The notes under the pieces were generated by a model. The model was not told the origin of the DNA. It saw only the letters and a program-made list of their open reading frames with translations, and ran no database searches. From Thiomicrorhabdus cannonii (lineage in GTDB: Bacteria; Pseudomonadota; Gammaproteobacteria; Thiomicrospirales; Thiomicrospiraceae): DNA of 64,000 nt. Below are positions 4,005 through 14,719 of this stretch, one piece after another (the stretch's first letter is position 1; every line of letters starts with the position of its first letter). Both the position numbers and the translations under genes were made by a program. The DNA is taken from positions 124,001 to 188,000 of the forward strand of contig NZ_JACBGH010000004.1 of the NCBI RefSeq assembly GCF_013391695.1. Direction: 5' to 3'.

Positions 4005-4056
4005 TTATACACAAGTTATACAATAAAGCCATACAAATTCAAAAATAGTTATACAC
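4005..4056. promoter_or_regulatory. Divergent regulatory region with repeated TTATACA elements
   Basis: TTATACAC at 4005-4012, TTATACA at 4016-4022, a related ATACAA at 4031-4036 and TTATACAC at 4049-4056 sit between the FAD-protein operon and the SDR gene. The same element lies inside the promoters near 8030 and 10220. I infer operators for a shared regulator, most plausibly a LitR/CarH-type light-responsive MerR protein given the photolyase-type gene content; no such regulator gene is in the window. Confidence 0.5.
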
Positions 4057-6278: not shown

Positions 6279-7829
6279 TTAATACTCCTCCATCAGCCGT
6301 TTGGCCGTTTCACGAATCGCCGCCTGCTGTTCCGCCGACTTGGCCTGCCAGTTCTTAACCTGCATCCCTAATCGCGGGTGGCCTTGTAGCCAGTTTTCGT
6401 GGCGGGCGATAAAATCCCAATAAAGCGCGGTAAACGGGCAGGCCTGCTCACCACTCGCCTGCTCTGGCCGATAGCGGCACCGCGCGCAGTAGTTCGACAT
6501 ACGTTGAATATAAGCGCCGCTGGCGATATAGGGTTTGGAACCGACGATACCACCGTCCGCGAATTGCGACATGCCCAGGGTATTGGGGATTTCCACCCAC
6601 GCCACCGCATCGGCATACATCGCCAGATACCAGCGATGCACCGCCTGCGGCTCGACTCCGCGCAGCAAGGCAAACAGGCCGGTCACCATCAACCGCTGGA
6701 TATGATGACCATACCCTTCATGCAACACCGGCCGCAGCGCCTCGTGCAGACAGACATAATCGGTTTTGCCGTGCCAATAAACCTCCGGCAGCGGTGCTGC
6801 GGCCTGCAAGGCATTCATGTCCGCCCAGGCGTTGCGATGCGACCAATACAAACCACGCACATACTCCCGCCACCCCAGAATCTGGCGGATAAACCCCTCG
6901 ACCGCATTGAGCGGCGCACACCCCTGGCGGTAGGCGTTTTCGGCATCGGCAATCAGCTCGCGCGGATTGAGCAGCTTCAGATTCAACGCGGCCGAAATCC
7001 GGCTGTGATAGAGCGTGTCTTCGCCGAGCCACATCGCATCCTGAAAATCGCCAAACAACGGCAGACGCGTCTGCACAAAGTCCTGCCATTGCGCCAACGC
7101 CTGCTCGCGCGTCAACGGCCAGAGAAAATCCCCCCAGAATCCGGGCAGGCCGGGTAGATGGGCTTCTATCTCGGCACGCACCGCATTCATGACCTTGCCG
7201 CTGGCCGCATCCTCCAAGGATTCCAGCGGCGGCAAGGCACCCGGCCCCTGCTTGCCGAACGCCTGGCGGTTATCCTTGTCAAAATTCCACACCCCGCCTT
7301 CCGGTTGACCGTCGGCACGCAGCAAAATGCCGTGTTTACGGCGCAAATAGCGATACCAGTATTCCATACGCGGCTGTTTCTTGCCGGCAAGCCAGTGCGA
7401 AAACTCACCGGGTTCGGCCATAAAATGGCGGTCCGGCAACCAGTTCAGCGTCAGCTTTGCGGCACCTGCCGCGGCTTCCATCAGCTGTCTTACCCGGTTA
7501 TCCCCCGGCAGCACCGCATAGACTGCCTGCGGCCGATGACGTGCAATCGCCTGTTGTAACGCCTCGCCCAAATCGGCCAGGCGCTCATGCAGGAAACGGT
7601 AATCAACCCGCCAGCCCTGATCCTGCAGGCGCTGTGAGAACAGGCGCATGGCGCTCAAAAACAGCAAGGTACGCTGCTTGCTGGAGAGCGGTTCAGTGGA
7701 TTCACCAAGCACCTCGGCCATCCATACACAATCGCGGGTGCGATCGGCCTGTTCCCAGAGCGCACTGTCTTCATTGAGTTGATCCCCCAACACCAACAAC
7801 AGATGCCGACAGGGCAAGGTCTGTTTCAT
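6279..7829 (-). CDS. FeS-BCP type cryptochrome/photolyase (PhrB-like)
   Basis: A 516-residue protein of the deoxyribodipyrimidine photolyase-related (DPRP) group, the iron-sulfur bacterial cryptochromes and (6-4) photolyases. It carries four cysteines spaced C-x87-C-x2-C-x12-C (DYVC, then YCARC and ACPF), exactly the ligand spacing known for the [4Fe-4S] cluster of Agrobacterium PhrB. FAD and a lumazine antenna would be expected. It likely repairs UV (6-4) photoproducts using blue light, though a sensory cryptochrome role cannot be excluded. The ATG overlaps the DUF2256 stop (ATGA). An AACAGGCCGG copy lies inside the gene (6673-6682). Confidence 0.9.
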
Positions 7830-7978
7830 AACGGATTCTCCTTAACGCCCTGACGGCGACAGCGCTGCGAACAGTAACGTACGTTTTCCCAGTTGAGCCG
7901 CCACTTCTTGCGCCAGACAAACGGGCGCTGACAAACCGGACAGATTTTTTGCGGCAGATGTTCTTTGTGATGCGACAT
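7826..7978 (-). CDS. DUF2256 small zinc-ribbon-like protein
   Basis: A 50-residue protein with two cysteine pairs, CPVC near residue 13 and CSQRC near residue 37, plus the [15 protein letters not shown] stretch characteristic of DUF2256. It probably binds zinc. DUF2256 genes are commonly found directly upstream of FeS photolyases, as here; the functional link is unknown. The ATG at 7978 has AGGGGG at suitable distance, and the stop overlaps the photolyase start. Confidence 0.85.
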
Positions 7979-8023
7979 GAGCGCCCCCTGAACAAATTCA
8001 AATGTACACTTATTGTATAATAA
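7979..8023 (-). promoter_or_regulatory. Photolyase operon promoter region
   Basis: The upstream region of DUF2256 contains TATACAATAAGTGTACA on the minus strand, again with TATACA-type half sites, and faces the promoter of the small transcript at 8059. Core -35/-10 boxes on this strand are weak (TTGTCA then GTACAT). Assignment as a divergent co-regulated promoter is inference. Confidence 0.4.
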
Positions 8024-8052
8024 TTGACAAAACTTATACACAAAGATAGAGT
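8024..8052 (+). promoter_or_regulatory. Sigma-70 promoter with TTATACAC in the spacer
   Basis: TTGACA at 8024-8029 and TAGAGT at 8047-8052 are separated by exactly 17 bp, and TTATACAC occupies the spacer at 8034-8041. The promoter at 10210-10238 has the same design. A regulator bound in the spacer would control both. Confidence 0.65.
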
Positions 8053-8058
8053 AACAAG

Positions 8059-8186
8059 TGAAACATTAAAGTTTTAATGTTCTCTGCTCTAGGCGTAAAC
8101 AGGTAATGGCATCAAGCAACAAAGGGTGGGCTATATCTGAATTTACGCCGCTTTAGGCCTGGTCTGAAAGGCCGGGCCTCTTTTTC
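8059..8186 (+). ncRNA. Candidate small RNA 1 (paralogue of 10245-10376)
   Basis: Predicted transcript of about 128 nt starting 6-7 nt after the -10 box. It opens with a hairpin (ACATTAAA/TTTAATGT, 8063-8080), continues with TTCTCTGCTCTA shared with the second copy, has an 8-bp long-range stem (GGCGTAAA at 8092-8099 with TTTACGCC at 8142-8149), and ends in an intrinsic terminator (AGGCCTGG/CCGGGCCT then TTTTT). No open reading frame of note. It may be a free small RNA or an attenuated leader of the chemoreceptor gene 78 bp further on. Confidence 0.55.
8155..8185 (+). terminator. Intrinsic terminator of small RNA 1
   Basis: Stem AGGCCTGG (8155-8162) with CCGGGCCT (8172-8179), followed by CTTTTT. 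Confidence 0.75.
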
Positions 8187-8263
8187 AAGGATTTCTTTGA
8201 GTCGCTTTATCCCGTCTGCCTGACAGGGCAAATGGCCAATTTAAAACCCAACGGGGAGGGTTT

Positions 8264-10168
8264 ATGTTTTGCAGCAACCTCAAACAGCAACTGAACAGAC
8301 TGGAACAGGCTAACCTCGAAAAAGAGGCTGTTCTCAAGGCGATGGATCGCGCCCTGGCAATGATCGAATTCGATCCGCAGGGAAACATCCTCGGATGCAA
8401 CCATAACTTCCAGCAGGTCATGGGTTACAGCGAAGAGGCGGTGCGCGGCAAACACCACAGTCTGTTCGTGAGTAAGCAGGAAACCGCAAGTGCCGGTTAT
8501 GCCCGCTTCTGGCAAAGACTCCGCCAGGGCGAATTCTTTTCCGGACGCTACAAACGGCTGCGTCAGGACGGCACCGCCGTTTGGCTGGAAGCCACCTATA
8601 ATCCGGTGATAAATTCAAATGGCGAGGTCGTCAAGGTGATCAAACTGGCCACCGACATTACCGCTAAAGTCGAGCGTGAACTGTACGACAAAGCGCAAAT
8701 GGAGGCTTTGAACAAAGTCATGGCGGTCATCACCTTTGATCTGCAGGGCAATATCCTCGATGCCAACGATAATTTCCTCAAAGCCACCGGCTATCAACTC
8801 GATGAGATACAACACCGGCATCACCGCCTGTTTGTAACACCGGAATATGCGGCATCGGAGGAATACGCGCTTTTCTGGAAGCAACTGGCCCAGGGCATTC
8901 ACCAGGCCGGCACCTTTGAACGGCGCACCAAAAACGGCGAGCCGCTATGGCTGGAAGCGAGTTACAACCCTATTCTGGATGACGAAGGCCAGCCGTTCCG
9001 GATTGTTAAATACGCGACCGATGTGAGCCAAAACGAGAACACCCGCCTGCTCAGGGATGTGATTGATAACGCCGGCGACGTGCTGCAACGCTTTTCGCAG
9101 GGCGATCTGACCGCCAGAATGCGTGAGCATCTTGAAGAGGGTCAGGTCTGCATGTTCCGCCCCGAAATCAACCAGCTCACCCGCAGCATCGGTGAAATGG
9201 CGGAAAAACTCGATGAGGTCATCGCCTCGGCGATTGAGTCTTCCAACGTGGTGCAAAGCGCCGCCGGCGAAGTCAGCAACGGCGCGGCCGATCTGAACCA
9301 GCGGGTACAGGAGCAGGCCGCCGCGCTGGAGCAGACCTCCTCCACCATGCATCAAATGAATGCCAGCGTGCAGAACAACTCCGCCAACGCCAGACATGCG
9401 GCCAAAGTCTCCAACGATGCACAGCTGAAAGCCGGCGATGGCGTGAAGGTCATGCAACAGACCATCGAGGCGATTAACGCCATTCAGGAGGCCAGCACCC
9501 ACATCGCCGAAATCGTCTCGTTAATTGACAGCATCGCCTTCCAGACCAACCTGCTGGCGCTCAATGCCGCGGTGGAAGCCGCCCGTGCCGGAGAACACGG
9601 TCGCGGCTTTGCGGTGGTGGCCGGCGAAGTGCGCAACCTGGCGCAGAAATCGGCCGAAGCGGCCAAAGACATCAACAAGTTGATCAACGACAGCGTTGCC
9701 AAAGTCACCCAGGGAACCAAACTCGCCTCGGAATCGGGCGAGGCGCTGCAGGAGATCAACAACGCAATTCAGGCTATCGTGCAACTGATCAAACAAATCG
9801 CCGATGCGTCCGATGAACAGGCCACCGGCATTGAACAGGTCCATCAGGCCATCACCCAAATTGACGATGTGACCCAACAGAACGCCGCGCTGGTGGAGCA
9901 GACCTCTGCCGCCGCCGACAGCATGAACGAACAGGCCACCCGGCTTCGCGACAATATGCGTTTTTTCAAGCTGAGCGCGCATTCAAACCAAGCGGCGCCT
10001 TCGGCTAATCCCGCCATCAGAAGCGCGCCGCAAACCTTGACGCAACCCGCGAAACCTGTCGCCAAACCATCCGCAACGCTGGCGCCGGCAAAAACGGCGA
10101 CAAACACCGACCAGCCGATAAAGGCGGCCATACAGCAGGCACGGGATACCGAATGGGAGGATTTTTAA
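8264..10168 (+). CDS. Soluble PAS-PAS methyl-accepting chemotaxis protein
   Basis: A 634-residue chemoreceptor with no visible membrane segment. Two PAS domains (about residues 25-140 and 145-265; each with the sequence pair GNILxxNxNF and LEATYNP/LEASYNP) precede a signalling domain of about 250 residues whose hairpin tip contains [20 protein letters not shown]. An Ala/Pro-rich linker leads to a C-terminal EWEDF, which resembles the NWETF-type pentapeptide that tethers CheR/CheB. The PAS domains suggest sensing of redox, oxygen or light through FAD or another cofactor. GGGGAGGG gives a strong ribosome site. Small RNA candidates flank it on both sides, and TTATACA promoter elements link it to the photolyase block. 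Confidence 0.9.
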
Positions 10169-10209
10169 GGCGACTGCAAAAGAGTGGATGTATAGATTAA
10201 GTACAATAT

Positions 10210-10238
10210 TTGACAAATGTTATACAACTGAATATATT
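10210..10238 (+). promoter_or_regulatory. Sigma-70 promoter with TTATACA in the spacer, second copy
   Basis: TTGACA (10210-10215) and TATATT (10233-10238) are 17 bp apart, with TTATACAA in the spacer (10220-10227), mirroring the promoter at 8024-8052. Confidence 0.65.
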
Positions 10239-10244
10239 AAATCA

Positions 10245-10376
10245 CGAAGCATTAAAGTCTTAATGTTCTCTGCTCTAAAAGGCGACAAAAGGTCAAGTTT
10301 TACACCCTTGACTGAAGGCCTCTTTACACCGGGCCTTACGCAATTTTTCAGCCCCCTTGCGGGGCTGCCTTTTTGC
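10245..10376 (+). ncRNA. Candidate small RNA 2 (paralogue of 8059-8186)
   Basis: Predicted transcript of about 130 nt. Its 5' hairpin (CATTAA/TTAATG, 10250-10265) and the next bases TTCTCTGCTCTA are nearly identical to small RNA 1, while the rest diverges in sequence but keeps the same architecture: a second stem (GTCAAG/CTTGAC, 10292-10312), a third (AAGGCC/GGCCTT, 10315-10337) and a terminator hairpin. Conserved 5' region plus covarying structure and no coding capacity argue for an RNA function. It lies downstream of the chemoreceptor and upstream of no plus-strand gene. Confidence 0.6.
10350..10375 (+). terminator. Intrinsic terminator of small RNA 2
   Basis: AGCCCC (10350-10355) pairs with GGGGCT (10361-10366) and is followed by GCCTTTTT. 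Confidence 0.8.
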
Positions 10377-10477: not shown

Positions 10478-10996
10478 CTATATGCCGCTATAGTCCAACC
10501 AAACATTAAACGCCGAATCGCTCACTACAGCGGCGCCATCGGTAATAATCATACCGTCATCATCCGCATAGAGATGCATGCCCGGCATGACGGTCAAGCC
10601 GGTAAACGCCAAATCGCACGACTGTAGAGTTTCGCTCGCAGAAGACTCTCTAATCGGACAGGTTCCCAACCCCCAGATGGCCAACGGCAGCCCTTTTAGA
10701 AACTGCGCGTTCCTGACATAGCCATTGACCACCAGACCGCGCCAGTTGTTTCGAATCGCCAAATCTGCAATTTTACGGTCAACCACTGACACATAACGCT
10801 GCCCGCTATCAATAAACAGCACGCGTTTTTTTCCATCATTTTTGAGAACCTCTTCCACTTCGTCGGCACTGCCGGTCTTAAGCGTCTCAATATCGGCGCT
10901 AATCGACGTGGAACCGCCGTATGATTTAAACAATGGACTGACCACTTGAATATTACCGTGATAGGTATCGCAAATCTCTGCTGTGCCAAATATCAT
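10478..10996 (-). CDS. RraA/HMG-aldolase family protein
   Basis: A 172-residue protein of the RraA fold, which includes the RNase E regulator RraA and class II 4-hydroxy-4-methyl-2-oxoglutarate aldolases. GTAEICDTYHG near the N-terminus, VLFIDSG and RGLVVNGYVRN around residue 95 are recognisable. In the aldolases the last motif ends in Arg-Asp, and the Asp helps bind the metal; here it reads VRN, so classical aldolase activity is doubtful. The ribosome site AAGGAGATAAAG precedes the ATG. It lies 148 bp downstream of the DUF302 gene, beyond a probable terminator and a repeat, so it may be a separate transcript. Confidence 0.75.
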   Translation of the reverse strand: MIFGTAEICDTYHGNIQVVSPLFKSYGGSTSISADIETLKTGSADEVEEVLKNDGKKRVLFIDSGQRYVSVVDRKIADLAIRNNWRGLVVNGYVRNAQFLKGLPLAIWGLGTCPIRESSASETLQSCDLAFTGLTVMPGMHLYADDDGMIITDGAAVVSDSAFNVWLDYSGI

Positions 10997-11110
10997 CTTT
11001 ATCTCCTTATCCCGTCAAATCGCACCAATAACAACCGTTATGCACCACAAATATTGCATTTCAGCGTGTTTTTAGGGGCTTCGCTAGCTATACAGCATGA
11101 CCGATACCAA

Positions 11111-11128
11111 AATGAACAGGCCGGGTAA
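11111..11128 (+). repeat. AACAGGCCGG-family repeat
   Basis: Exact core at 11115-11124 with AATG before and GTAAAA after. It lies directly behind the terminator of the DUF302-ended operon, in the gap to the RraA-like gene. Confidence 0.9.
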
Positions 11129-11146
11129 AAAAGCCCCAACCGGCTT
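11127..11146 (-). terminator. Weak intrinsic terminator after DUF302
   Basis: On the minus strand AAGCC-GGTTGG-GGCTT is followed by a run of T. The stem is only 5 bp and overlaps the DUF302 stop codon. Confidence 0.5.
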
Positions 11147-11591
11147 AATGTTCCGCTGCGATATTGACCAAACCCGACAAAACGGCACTCAGCACCTCGA
11201 CCTGCGGGCATTCCGAAATGCCATATCGGTTAGCCAGATAGGCTAAATCGTTGTATGACAACCACACCATCCCGCTCTCATCCTCCCAAGCGAGAATTTT
11301 CAGCGGCAGATCCAATCCGATGGCCTGGCTCGCCGCCATCAAAGGCGTTCCTCCCTGGGGACTGCCGAAAATCAACAGCTCCGTCGGCCGCAACTGTTTG
11401 TCTACTTGAAGCGCCCCGGCTGCGTGGTCGATGCGGGCGAAAACCTTCATTCCGTGCGCTGTCACTTCGGCCTCCAGCTTATCGACCGACCGTTTAACGG
11501 AGTTAAGACTGGGAATCTTAACTAACCCTTTGTCACTGACGGTTTCGGCTTGATATTCGGACATATTCACATTACCTACATGGCTGAACAT
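11145..11591 (-). CDS. DUF302 domain protein
   Basis: A 148-residue protein of the DUF302 family (SVDKLEAEVTAHGMKVFARIDHAAGA, then ELLIFGSPQGGTPLM). These proteins are small cytoplasmic or periplasmic domains of unknown function, often found near redox or sulfur genes; no signal peptide is seen here. Start is coupled to the upstream rubredoxin-reductase gene by TAATG at 11591; a second in-frame ATG at 11564 (MSEYQ) is possible. It is the fourth gene of the predicted sigma-54-controlled operon osmC-like, ACAD-like, rubredoxin reductase, DUF302. Confidence 0.8.
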   Translation of the reverse strand: MFSHVGNVNMSEYQAETVSDKGLVKIPSLNSVKRSVDKLEAEVTAHGMKVFARIDHAAGALQVDKQLRPTELLIFGSPQGGTPLMAASQAIGLDLPLKILAWEDESGMVWLSYNDLAYLANRYGISECPQVEVLSAVLSGLVNIAAEH

Positions 11592-12961
11592 TAAGCGGAA
11601 TACAGCTCGTTATAAAGTTTATTGGCAGAGGCCACCAATTCACCACTCAGCGCAAAACCGATGACATTTTGCTCTTCCTTGTAGAACAGCTGCTGGTTGT
11701 CGCCCACATTGAGCGTCGTTTCCCACAAACCGTGCGTGGCATGCAGCGGCGGACTCAACATAATCGACAAACTGGGCGTCTTGGTCTTAATCAGCGTTGG
11801 CAGCACTTTAAATACCTGCTCATCAGCGCCAAATATATGCGAAGCCAGCGCTTTAACCTGCCTTCTAATAGGCTCCAAATAGGCCTGAATAACGCCATCG
11901 ATTTCAGCGCAATCGCCTATCGCATAGATATTCTCATCACTGGTGACACAGTGTTCATCAATACAGATGCCCAGATTCGTCTTCAGTCCAGCCTTTTTCG
12001 CCAATTCAGTATTGGGAGACAAACCAATGGCCGCCAAGACCAGTTCGGTTTGCAGCACTTCGCCCTGATCGGTTTTAAGAACATATTTCCCTTCATCACC
12101 GTAATCGATAGACTTCAGCTCTGAGTTGAAAACAATGTCGATACCACGACTCATGAGCTTCTCTTCCAGCCTGCGTGCAATCGCCTCCGGCATAATCTGG
12201 CTCATCAGATGCGCGCCCCGCACAATGAGACGCACCTTAACGCCATAAGATGCCAAATCTTCGGCCAATTCGGTCGCGATCAGACCGCCGCCAATCAGGG
12301 TCACCTCCTGTTTACCCTGAAGCTTGCCATAAAACTTCTTATAAGCCTGCAGATCATTGATGGTCATCACTTCATGCACGGCATCGCCTTCGATTCTTGG
12401 CATTAACGCCTTCGCTCCGGTCGCGATAATCAACTTGTCGTAAGCGAACGAGCCCGTGGTTGTCATGACTTTCTTGCGTGCGGTGTTGATCGACATAACC
12501 TTGGTTTTGGTTTTAACGCCGATATTCAACTCAGCCGCTTTTTGATTGGCGGTCGCTTCGGGAATATCATCGGGTGTTCTGTTTTGACCCAATGCCATCG
12601 ACAAAGCGGGCTTGGGATAGACCGTTCCATCATCCGCCGTCAACAGCGTGATGACCGCCTCATCGGAAACCGCGCGAATCGCTTCAGCCGCCTGCCAGCC
12701 GGCATAGCCGGAGCCGACAATCAGTACATCCGCCTTGGTGCTCGCTTTGCGCTTAGTTCCCTCACACGACGGTGCTGCAGATTTGGATTCATCGATCAGA
12801 ACAAAATCCGATTTACTGACCAAACACAAGGGACAGTACCAATCGTCAGGAATATCCTCAAAACGCGTGCCCGGCGCCAAACCTGAATCCGGATCGCCCA
12901 ATTCCTCGTCATAAATCAGACCACATGTCTTACAGATGTACTTTTTAAATGGCTGGCTCAT
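11591..12961 (-). CDS. Rubredoxin fused to FAD-dependent rubredoxin reductase
   Basis: A 456-residue fusion. Residues 1-56 are a rubredoxin with both CxxC iron ligands (CKTCG and CPLC). After a short linker, residues 70-456 form a pyridine-nucleotide oxidoreductase: FAD motif [15 protein letters not shown](P)H motif [13 protein letters not shown] and the second FAD motif YAIGDCAE. It should pass electrons from NAD(P)H through FAD to its own iron centre and on to a partner. The neighbouring acyl-CoA-dehydrogenase-like flavoprotein (9 bp upstream) is the natural candidate; alternatives are oxygen or peroxide detoxification. Confidence 0.9.
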
Positions 12962-12970
12962 AGCAATCTC

Positions 12971-14056
12971 CTAAGCCGCTGACAAGCGATCAATCTCTTT
13001 TCTTAAGTGCTTAATCGACGGGGTAACAATAATGACAAAATAGGCTTCGCGCTGCTTGCGATGCGGCGCGGCATCCATAATGTATCCCTTGGCGCCCGCA
13101 TGCTGCATGACCGAATCCGCAGCACGCTTACAAATTTCAGCTCCAAGCAGACGCGCCTCCAGAACCGAACGGATATAGTCTGCACCGGGCGTATAAGGTT
13201 CCTCGCACAACCCTTGAATCAAATCCAGCGCATCCTCGAGCTCTTCCCGCAACTCATCGGGCGAATCATCCAGGTACTCATTGATTTCGGACAGCGTCAA
13301 ATTGGCTTTGTTCATTTCATTGATCGCGCCCTGAATCACGCCGGCCGCCATGCCGGTTTGCAGCAGAATGAACCCCGCCTTGATTTTTTCCAGATAGGGC
13401 TTTAACGGATCTGCCAAAAGATATTTTTTGGGCAAGAATGCATTATCAAAAATCAACGAGTAGGTGCCCGTACCCTCCATACCGACAAACTTCACCATCT
13501 GTTTCATGGTCAACCCGTCCAGATCGCATGGAATCAACGCCATGACATCGCGAATGGGCGTGCCATCCTTTTTATGAAGCGTGAAAATCGACCCGAAGAA
13601 GTGCTTGGAGGAGCTCTCCAATAAATTTGAAACCCATGGAAGCGTACCGTTGATGACATAGCCATCTTCCGTTTCTTCTGCCGACAACTTCAACTCTTCA
13701 ATCCCGGCGAAATACTTCATCGGATTGGAAAGCGCCGTCGCACCAAAATATTCCCCGTTTACCATTTTTGGTAATACATTCTCTTTCAGCCACGTGTTCT
13801 CAGAGTTTTCGATATACCAAGCGCATACCGATTGCGCCCACATCATAAAACCTGTAGACATACACTCTTCTGAAACCGTTGCCATATCCGCAATCGTTCC
13901 AAACAGATTCAGGTCACCATTGTTTTGCGAAGGAATATGGTGACGAAACGCGCCCGCCTGACCGACCTTCTCCAAAATAGAGGTGGTGTACTCACCGTGA
14001 TCAATCGCTACCGTTAGCGGCTTTAAATCCTTCTGAACAATTTGTTTAATCATCAT
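12971..14056 (-). CDS. Acyl-CoA dehydrogenase-fold flavoprotein, atypical active site
   Basis: A 361-residue protein with the acyl-CoA dehydrogenase fold: the GMEGTGTYSLIFDNAFLP segment in the middle beta domain and the QHAGAKGYIMD segment in the C-terminal helix bundle. In true dehydrogenases the region after this carries the catalytic Glu (as in YEGTS); here it reads VTPSIKHL with no Glu, which resembles group D flavin monooxygenases such as DszC/SfnB relatives more than beta-oxidation enzymes. No acyl-CoA metabolism gene lies nearby. ATG at 14056 has AGAGGAT upstream. Substrate unknown. Confidence 0.75.
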   Translation of the reverse strand: MMIKQIVQKDLKPLTVAIDHGEYTTSILEKVGQAGAFRHHIPSQNNGDLNLFGTIADMATVSEECMSTGFMMWAQSVCAWYIENSENTWLKENVLPKMVNGEYFGATALSNPMKYFAGIEELKLSAEETEDGYVINGTLPWVSNLLESSSKHFFGSIFTLHKKDGTPIRDVMALIPCDLDGLTMKQMVKFVGMEGTGTYSLIFDNAFLPKKYLLADPLKPYLEKIKAGFILLQTGMAAGVIQGAINEMNKANLTLSEINEYLDDSPDELREELEDALDLIQGLCEEPYTPGADYIRSVLEARLLGAEICKRAADSVMQHAGAKGYIMDAAPHRKQREAYFVIIVTPSIKHLRKEIDRLSAA

Positions 14057-14106
14057 TGCAATCCTCTTGGCAAGGACTGGCCCGGCGCACCGGGCCAGCA
14101 TCTCTC

Positions 14107-14646
14107 TTATTTCTTCAATTCACCAGACATCTTCACAGAGTTCATATAGGTGTTAGCAACCGGTGACCACTTCATGGCATGGGCAACCAGTTCCTCAAGC
14201 ACCTCTTGAGATGTGCCTGGAGATTCAATTACGAAATAGGCGCGAACTTCCGTCACCCCCAGTGGCTTGTTAGGATCCAGGTCACCTGTCCCCCACACGG
14301 CAGTGATATTAATGTCGCCTTCCAAATGCACTTCCAGCTTAGTCAATGGAATACCACGGTTGGTTGCGTTAGCTTGCACACCCACAGACAAACATGAACC
14401 CAATGACAACAAGGCCATTTCAGATGGGTTTGGAGCCGTATCTTCACCTAACAATCCTGGCGGCTCGTCCACAACGATGGCAGGAAGATCACGAATATAG
14501 TTGAAGTTTTTGAATTGTCCTTCCAGTACGGTTTTGGACTTCAACGTCTTAACTGCATTCGGGTCGGCCTTACCGGCCTCACCTAACTTATCCAAACCGC
14601 TCTTATCAATTGGACGCAGGCATGATGGGATAACGATTTCTGACAT
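14107..14646 (-). CDS. OsmC-like protein lacking the resolving cysteine
   Basis: A 179-residue OsmC/Ohr-fold protein. The first redox cysteine is present in SLGSCLSVGVQA (about residue 85), but the second, normally in a CPV motif, is replaced (KWSPVANTY), so two-cysteine peroxidase chemistry is unlikely. Family members act on organic hydroperoxides or persulfides. AGGAGAAATCTC precedes the ATG at 14646; an upstream in-frame ATG at 14664 lacks such a site. It is the first gene of the minus-strand operon and has a clear sigma-54 promoter 74 bp upstream. Confidence 0.85.
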   Translation of the reverse strand: MSEIVIPSCLRPIDKSGLDKLGEAGKADPNAVKTLKSKTVLEGQFKNFNYIRDLPAIVVDEPPGLLGEDTAPNPSEMALLSLGSCLSVGVQANATNRGIPLTKLEVHLEGDINITAVWGTGDLDPNKPLGVTEVRAYFVIESPGTSQEVLEELVAHAMKWSPVANTYMNSVKMSGELKK

Positions 14647-14719
14647 GAGATTTCTCCTAAACAATTAAATAATTTATTGGTCTAAATCATTTTCGCTGAC
14701 CGAAAACTGTTAAGTACTT

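Follow-up and report, generated by a model that had tools for sequence, protein, structure and literature searches.

Two small-RNA-like units, here called R1 and R2, lie around a chemoreceptor gene of Thiomicrorhabdus cannonii in the window, that is, the whole stretch of 64,000 nucleotides that was analysed; their promoters match, and neither shows signs of coding for protein. Genome comparison establishes operator-like arrays, a LitR-LOV-photolyase-RudS neighbourhood and a conserved R2 core, and what emerges is a new family of structured RNAs apparently under the control of a light switch. We consider it probable (about 0.68) that a LOV-LitR blue-light regulon includes R1 and R2 as non-coding RNAs, with light-released transcription and action in trans through a 5' seed and loop docking.

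Two units with matched promoters around a chemoreceptor gene

R1 (8059-8186) and R2 (10245-10373), both on the plus strand, enclose a gene of the same strand for a methyl-accepting chemotaxis protein with two PAS domains (8264-10168), the start codon of which lies 78 nt past the R1 terminator. The 5' ends are predicted, for R1 from the position of the -10 box, and the 3' ends are those of the terminators, located ~130 nt from the predicted starts. A promoter scan identified TTGACA-17-TAGAGT at 8024-8052 (+) for R1 and TTGACA-17-TATATT at 10210-10238 (+) for R2; with their respective -10 boxes, R1 agrees with 10 and R2 with 11 of 12 consensus positions. The R1 intrinsic terminator (8155-8186, +) consists of a hairpin of 11 pairs (8155-8179) followed by a T run, and that of R2 (10349-10373, +) of a hairpin of 7 pairs (10349-10367), likewise followed by a T run. 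Between positions 7000 and 11500, promoter-like sites number 6 (2.4 in shuffled sequences, sd 1.6) and terminator-like sites 15 (6.3, sd 2.3).

The two units align without gaps from ~8000/10186 through the end of TTCTCTGCTCTA, a region spanning the promoter/operator and the 5' hairpin, and BLAST with positions 8001-8100 retrieves R2 at an E-value of 4.3e-10 (77% over 77 nt). TTCTCTGCTCTA, identical in R1 (8080-8091, +) and R2 (10266-10277, +), occurs in the whole genome exactly twice, at these two places. Folding yields a 5' hairpin, P0, in each unit (ACATTAAAGTTTTAATGT at 8063-8080 in R1 and GCATTAAAGTCTTAATGT at 10249-10266 in R2, both +), built in both around ATTAAAGT(T/C)TTAAT. The sequence-only reading, which had described two blocks of one design (TTGACA, 17-bp spacers with TTATACA, -10 boxes, a 5' hairpin and terminators) sharing an identical sequence, is in these respects borne out.

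Past the promoter and 5' module the two units diverge: R1 folds into one long stem-loop, GGCGTAAA...TTTACGCC (8092-8149, +), which has no match to the R2-core model described below, and R2 into two short hairpins. The middles are accordingly not two versions of one stem arrangement, as had been proposed, and the term 'twins' applies to the promoter/operator and the 5' module only. Both units fold better than most of their shuffled counterparts, with z -3.85 and 0 of 200 shuffles equally good for R1, and z -2.43 and 3 of 200 for R2. R1 has stops in all three frames; in R2, one frame is open and continues through the terminator. Rfam gave no match above the gathering threshold at either unit and, at loose E-values, sub-threshold chance matches only; no match to R1 was found in plasmids, and none to R2 in phages.

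The R2 core and its relatives

The R2 core, P1-P2-P3-P1' (10276-10349, +), matches a covariance model at 50.8 bits (E 2e-11), R2 itself being one of the six sequences behind that model. The layout of the family comprises the 5' hairpin P0, a closing stem P1 (weak in R2) and, identified by folding and alignment, the hairpins P2 (GGTCAAG-TTTTACACC-CTTGACT in R2, 10291-10313, +) and P3 (AAGGCC-TCTTTACACCG-GGCCTT, 10315-10337, +), each with a UUACA-type loop. The six sequences (R2 and the RNAs of genomes G007, G009, G010, G016 and G030) were aligned by sequence alone; they were picked by eye for visible UUACA hairpins and are not a blind sample, five of them having been reached via the operator or via a hydrolase gene. 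Fifteen hydrolase upstream regions were read, and those of G008, G024, G033, G011, G025, G002, G023, G019, G043 and G036 were left out of the alignment, as was the RNA of G013. In the alignment of six, both hairpins are in register with UUACA in both loops, 82.7% of the cells in P1, P2 and P3 pair, and 14 of the 25 pairs are changed on both sides. On none of the five measures does a single one of 500 shuffles come as high, and a shift of one column lowers the pairing to at most 51.8%.

A run of the model over 39 sources brought in G023 (E 2.4e-8) and G025 (E 6e-8), neither of which had been used in building it, as well as G013 (25.2 bits, E 0.0007) and G002 (20.5 bits, E 0.016). In the same search R1 was unmatched up to E 10, and G024, G011, G033 and G008 were unmatched despite RNA-like stretches upstream of the hydrolase. 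Over 369 whole genomes, searched with stricter filters that missed G023, 13 genomes had a match at E ≤0.1, and seven of these, all from the same genus (the genome studied here, G007, G009, G010, G016, G025 and G030), scored 4e-7 or better. The G025 match is the best in its whole genome (E 3.9e-7) and is preceded, 55 nt upstream, by a site with 12 of 13 operator positions. The matches outside the genus (G141, G242, G177, G226, G237 and G052) and a second match in G025 have at most 9 of 13 operator positions upstream and were treated as chance. The R2-type core is thus carried by seven relatives, in six of which an operator-like site lies upstream (13 of 13 positions in G030, as in R2 itself; 12 in G010, G016 and G025; 11 in G009; 10 in G007), with a poor best site of 9 of 13 in the seventh, G023. 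As judged from these scores, the conserved core RNA recurs mostly after LitR/CarH-like operators.

Adding G023 and G025, both included because the model had found them, gave a sequence-only alignment of eight in which P2 and P3 show compensatory change at all 15 pairs, with 86.4% of cells paired; no shuffle out of 500 was equally high, every slid control was lower, and RNAalifold, unaided, predicted exactly the same 15 pairs. P1, which aligns poorly, was left out of this count; in the model-fitted alignment A9 it is 90% paired, a figure that leans towards the model. All nine RNAs examined, R1 included, can form a 5' hairpin, a comparison made without a shuffle control. Since the sample is of eight sequences, two found by the model and six picked by eye, the structural claim rests on the count of compensated pairs and on the slid controls. 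On these grounds the R2 core is very probably a conserved structured RNA, the representative of an apparently undescribed family of UUACA-loop RNAs confined so far to one genus. Selection on structure, which had been suggested for both units, is strongly supported for R2 by the compensatory changes across relatives and does not extend to R1, unmatched by the R2-core model. R1 falls outside the UUACA-loop family as defined here, sharing with R2 the promoter and the 5' module only. The finding is real; for R2 it goes beyond the sequence-only reading, and for R1 it falls short of a twin.

In all eight cores, one or more reading frames stay open over the two loops. A coding role was rejected: such a frame contains a start codon in only three of them (G010, R2 and G025), and the frame in which the loops are read is not constant. 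With five of the eight members lacking an ATG-, GTG- or TTG-started frame across both loops, and all R1 frames stopped, the earlier view that neither unit codes for protein holds.

Hydrolase loci: leader or free-standing RNA

In four genomes (G024, G011, G010 and G030), operator sites with up to one mismatch precede a non-coding stretch that leads to an alpha/beta-hydrolase gene, and in G013 such a site lies ahead of hydrolase-gene fragments. A search for the hydrolase recovered 26 loci in 25 of 62 genomes; in seven of the 26, the 450 nt upstream contain an operator-like site agreeing at 12-13 of 13 positions, against an average of 0.0 in 40 shuffled sets, and 11 of the 26 upstream regions were scored for operators only. 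A second, larger operator-driven RNA was observed in G013 (L164/L180), G024 (L178/L181) and G011 (L168/L182), with a GTGGA..TCCAC 5' hairpin and a closing stem CCCCAAG..CTTGGGG followed by a U-rich stretch.

The arrangement at these loci bears on the best-surviving alternative, namely that the RNA is a cis-acting leader, an attenuator- or riboswitch-like 5' element of the downstream gene, in which case R1 would attenuate the chemoreceptor gene and R2 would be a copy whose gene was lost. The core does sit between the operator and the hydrolase start in five relatives (G010, G009, G016, G007 and G030), several members have a U-rich stretch after the closing stem, and the 78 nt between the R1 terminator and the chemoreceptor start likewise speak for a leader. 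However, in R2, G023 and G025 the RNA is free-standing: a terminator-like hairpin follows it, and no gene is in line right after. The genome studied here has kept the RNA with no hydrolase match at E 1e-20; the G025 hydrolase lies 1.3 Mb from the RNA behind an operator-like site of its own, where no core was matched; and in G013 a related RNA persists with nothing but short hydrolase fragments next to it. Because the RNA can exist without the hydrolase gene, the comparison favours an independent role, a relic being possible, and we regard a leader as unlikely, though it is the alternative with most in its favour. Action in trans, rather than as a leader only, is somewhat the better bet.

Operators and the light-regulator neighbourhood

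The R1 operator (8003-8040, +) contains the half-sites TGTACA at 8003, TGTATA at 8014 (a pseudo-repeat), TTGACA at 8024 (the -35 element) and TATACA at 8035, and the R2 operator (10189-10226, +) contains TGTATA at 10189, AGTACA at 10200, TTGACA at 10210 (-35) and TATACA at 10221. The steps between half-sites are 11, 10 and 11 bp in both, and the outer repeats are imperfect. A published account of CarH operators gives the rule as tandem 11-bp repeats of the form 5'-nnnnTnnACAn-3' with the -35 element in one repeat (PMC9304148). At 8024/8035 and 10210/10221, two TnnACA half-sites follow in tandem at an 11-bp step, the first being the -35 element, which fits operators of LitR/CarH-like form. A further putative LitR-type operator, TATACA-N5-TATACA with an 11-bp step (4006-4022), lies between divergent genes, with amine-oxidase, DUF1365 and cyclopropane-synthase genes on one side and SDR and SnoaL genes on the other. 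Upstream of R1, the photolyase-related DPRP gene of the light cluster (6279-7829, minus strand) is followed by a DUF2256 gene (7847-7978, minus strand), which is divergent from R1 and adjoins its operator region.

The exact operator core TTGACAAANNTTATACA occurs in the genome only at R1 and R2. As sites with up to three mismatches are no commoner in this genome than those of a reversed-pattern control (70 versus 69), own-genome matches are meaningful at the exact sites only. In the window alone, the same tolerance gives 5 sites versus 0.94 expected, a number reached by 1 of 100 shuffles, and with up to one mismatch the 62 family genomes together hold 24 sites versus 22 for the reversed pattern.

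About 2 kb before the window, the genome has its one match to a relative's LitR (G000:C4:121134-121925, 39% identity). The corresponding gene (~121062-121928 of G000:C4) encodes a protein with a MerR_1 domain and a partial CarH match below the curated cut-off. Beside it lie genes for a short PAS/LOV protein, a two-domain TudS/DUF1722 (RudS-type) protein and a DNA photolyase; the PAS/LOV protein carries the cysteine motif CRFLQG. The Pfam search of the regulator returned MerR domains only and no B12-binding_2 domain, a domain reported for the P. mendocina LitRs in passages of PMC9758184, and we therefore call it LitR-like and not class II. According to the same passages, class II LitR is in P. 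mendocina the effector of a short LOV protein, which when illuminated inhibits DNA binding by LitR (PMC9758184), and RudS genes are described in another paper as often located in light-responsive operons (PMC11417400).

Given LitR/CarH-like operators and, just before the window, LitR-like, LOV, photolyase and RudS-type genes, the two units are probably members of a blue-light regulon of the LOV-LitR kind. Light control of the two units is deduced from position and operator form, and the operators together with the LOV-LitR pair next door give light and dark conditions a concrete relevance. We rate control of R1 and R2 by LitR as likely. That these are ordinary sigma-70 promoters, or sites of another MerR regulator, with light uninvolved, is improbable: TTGACA is indeed the -35 consensus itself, and neither the three-mismatch sites of this genome nor the one-mismatch sites of the family exceed the reversed pattern, but the half-site arrays extend past the promoter, the same element stands at the amine-oxidase/SDR divergence, operator-like sites are enriched upstream of the hydrolase, and the LitR-LOV pair adjoins.

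The shared 5' module and candidate targets

Conservation in relatives, on which the sequence-only reading had staked its case, was found for the R2 core in seven relatives; the shared 5' module was clearly found only in its own genome. The pattern TTAATGTTCTCTGCTCTA, with up to two mismatches, occurs in 7 of 95 genomes including this one. Among the nine sites in the other six genomes, one (L017, G063) also has a CATTAA...TTAATG-like hairpin, but within an open frame of 424 aa and with no such promoter; the remaining sites, judged by eye, have neither hairpin nor promoter. The exact 16-mer was found in 63 stretches of the contig collection, 5 with a CATTAA-like word just upstream and 1 with 10 of 13 operator positions, the two features never occurring together. 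BLAST with the module in 62 genomes produced weak matches, of which, outside this genome, only those in G009 and G030 fell below 0.003, both covering the promoter part only. A covariance model of the operator and the module, the kind of search that had been recommended for the 5' hairpin, recovered from 369 genomes under stricter filters R1 and R2 themselves and, near E 0.09, a match each in G030 and G017, with no strong match in the 368 other genomes (best E 0.086). Conservation of the module outside this genome was rejected on the outcome of the pattern, exact-word, BLAST and covariance searches. Synteny with the DPRP gene was likewise rejected, the module being present upstream of that gene at its own locus alone of the 12 scanned (own included); at L094, a one-mismatch TTCTCTGCTCTG lies 888 nt out from the DPRP gene, without a hairpin.

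Several further features were observed. Downstream of the DPRP gene in G019 (L087), after a small open frame, there is an array of 12-13-nt units GTGGGTGCAAAAT, with 15 copies of GGGTGCAAA within ~200 nt. A near-identical dispersed repeat of ~150-200 nt around AACTCGGCTGTAGAGCCGAGAA has two copies in the genome studied here (L006, G000:C3:62913, and L007, C4:45990). In the window, positions 10478-14664 hold RraA-like and DUF302 genes first, then genes that we take to encode a rubredoxin-linked reductase, an acyl-CoA dehydrogenase and an OsmC protein.

Together with the UG preceding it, the shared UUCUCUGCUCUA could form a 14-nt duplex, with one G-U pair, at the ribosome-binding site of an apparently mraY-like gene (L237, G000:C9:31918-31931). 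Genome-wide, 14-nt seed complements with G-U allowed number 4 outside R1 and R2, versus 5 for the reversed pattern, and two of the four fall on ribosome-binding sites, those of the mraY-like gene and of a 132-aa gene. These complements are interesting and not significant, as purine-rich sites favour chance complements to the seed, and target prediction with the shared motif, an approach suggested earlier, thus yields a chance number. Because the 5' module is clear only in its own genome, the seed role of the 5' stretch rests on two copies.

A further reading takes R1 and R2 as leftovers of a duplicated promoter, transcribed in response to light without RNA function and with terminators that only insulate the neighbours. 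It is quite improbable: R1 and R2 do have the promoter and 5' module in common and not the middle, R1 is outside the structural family and the module has no strong match elsewhere, but this account fails for R2, the core of which is compensated across eight genomes, and could apply only to R1.

UUACA loops

In the alignment, the P3 loops are of 7 nt and the P2 loops of 9 nt with a mostly mismatched outer pair, so that P2 loops were compared by their inner seven positions. All 16 loops have UACA at positions 3-6, with U at position 2 and a pyrimidine at position 1 in 15 of 16 each, and all take the form YYUACAN or AUUACAA. YUACA words number 16 versus 1.8 expected in single-letter shuffles (largest value 9 in 2000 shuffles), the motif having been chosen after it was seen.

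Protein-titrating RNAs of the CsrB/RsmZ kind have repeated hairpins that show one fixed loop motif, GGA. The R2 family resembles them in its repeated hairpins with a fixed motif and differs in having UUACA-type loops and two hairpins only; an RNA titrating CsrA/RsmE was rejected on the absence of GGA from the 16 hairpin loops. Of the features of Hfq-dependent sRNAs, a terminator with a U run is present.

All 16 loops resemble the anticodon loop of tRNA-Val(UAC) in the register of U33, UAC and A37, and CUUACAA of E. coli valT recurs in P2 of G016 and P3 of G030. The 7-nt loop Y-U-U-A-C-A-N is common to both, whereas the stems and surroundings of the R2 family are not those of a tRNA, and a tRNA or tRNA-like identity was rejected, ARAGORN calling no tRNA at these RNAs. 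It is a long shot that R2 and its relatives are blue-light-induced mimics of the anticodon arm, in which two hairpins per RNA would copy the loop Y32 U33 U34 A35 C36 A37 N38 and titrate, or be modified or cut by, a factor recognising the tRNA-Val(UAC) loop. The likeness may be coincidental, as a protein site or a kissing loop would look alike. If true, mimicry would link responses to light with the handling of tRNA; the RudS-type gene next to the light sensor, for a tRNA 4-thiouridine desulfidase, makes such a link too.

Discussion

For R1 and R2 as RNAs of a LOV-LitR regulon, we envisage that in the dark a LitR/CarH-family repressor would occupy the half-sites overlapping the -35 element and the spacer. 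Under blue light, the short LOV protein would pull LitR off the operator, and RNA polymerase would then make two ~130-nt RNAs ending at the intrinsic terminators. Both RNAs would act in trans, the shared 5' stretch UUCUCUGCUCUA serving as a seed that pairs with purine-rich ribosome-binding sites, while an RNA-binding partner would dock on the two invariant R2 loops. That the loops bind a partner is a tentative suggestion.

The closest known systems are the LOV-LitR pair of Pseudomonas mendocina (PmSB-LOV/PmlR2) and PplR of P. putida. As described in PMC9758184 and PMC11417400, these too pair a short LOV gene with an adjoining LitR gene, include genes for a photolyase and a RudS-type protein, and have TGTACA-like half-sites, one overlapping the -35 element. 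Unlike the 11-bp tandem kind seen here, which is that of CarH, their half-sites are of the form T(G/A)TACA-N12-TGTA(C/T)A, and the passages, titles and abstract beginnings consulted mention no small RNA in these regulons (PMC9758184, PMC11417400). The CarH operators of Thermus, Bacillus and myxobacteria share with R1 and R2 the tandem 11-bp TnnACA repeats with the -35 element inside one; according to the same source they control carotenoid genes, whereas those of R1 and R2 precede RNAs and have one 10-bp step and a pseudo-repeat (PMC9304148). Pos19 and StsR of Rhodobacter sphaeroides are alike by description, as small RNAs tied to photo-oxidative stress. Pos19, of the RpoE regulon and titled a small coding RNA, is by the same description unlike R1 and R2, and the abstract beginnings mention no LitR link for either.

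Light switches of the LitR/CarH and LOV kinds are known to control protein genes; the titles and abstract beginnings of the literature searched name no RNA as an output of such a switch, which is not proof of absence. The R2 family adds a structured RNA shared by eight genomes within a single genus and preceded in most of them by what looks like such a switch, in which the stems vary freely and the loops are invariant. The invariant UUACA loop raises the question of what reads it under light, and if that reader is a tRNA-recognising factor, light damage would be linked to translation control through RNA mimicry.
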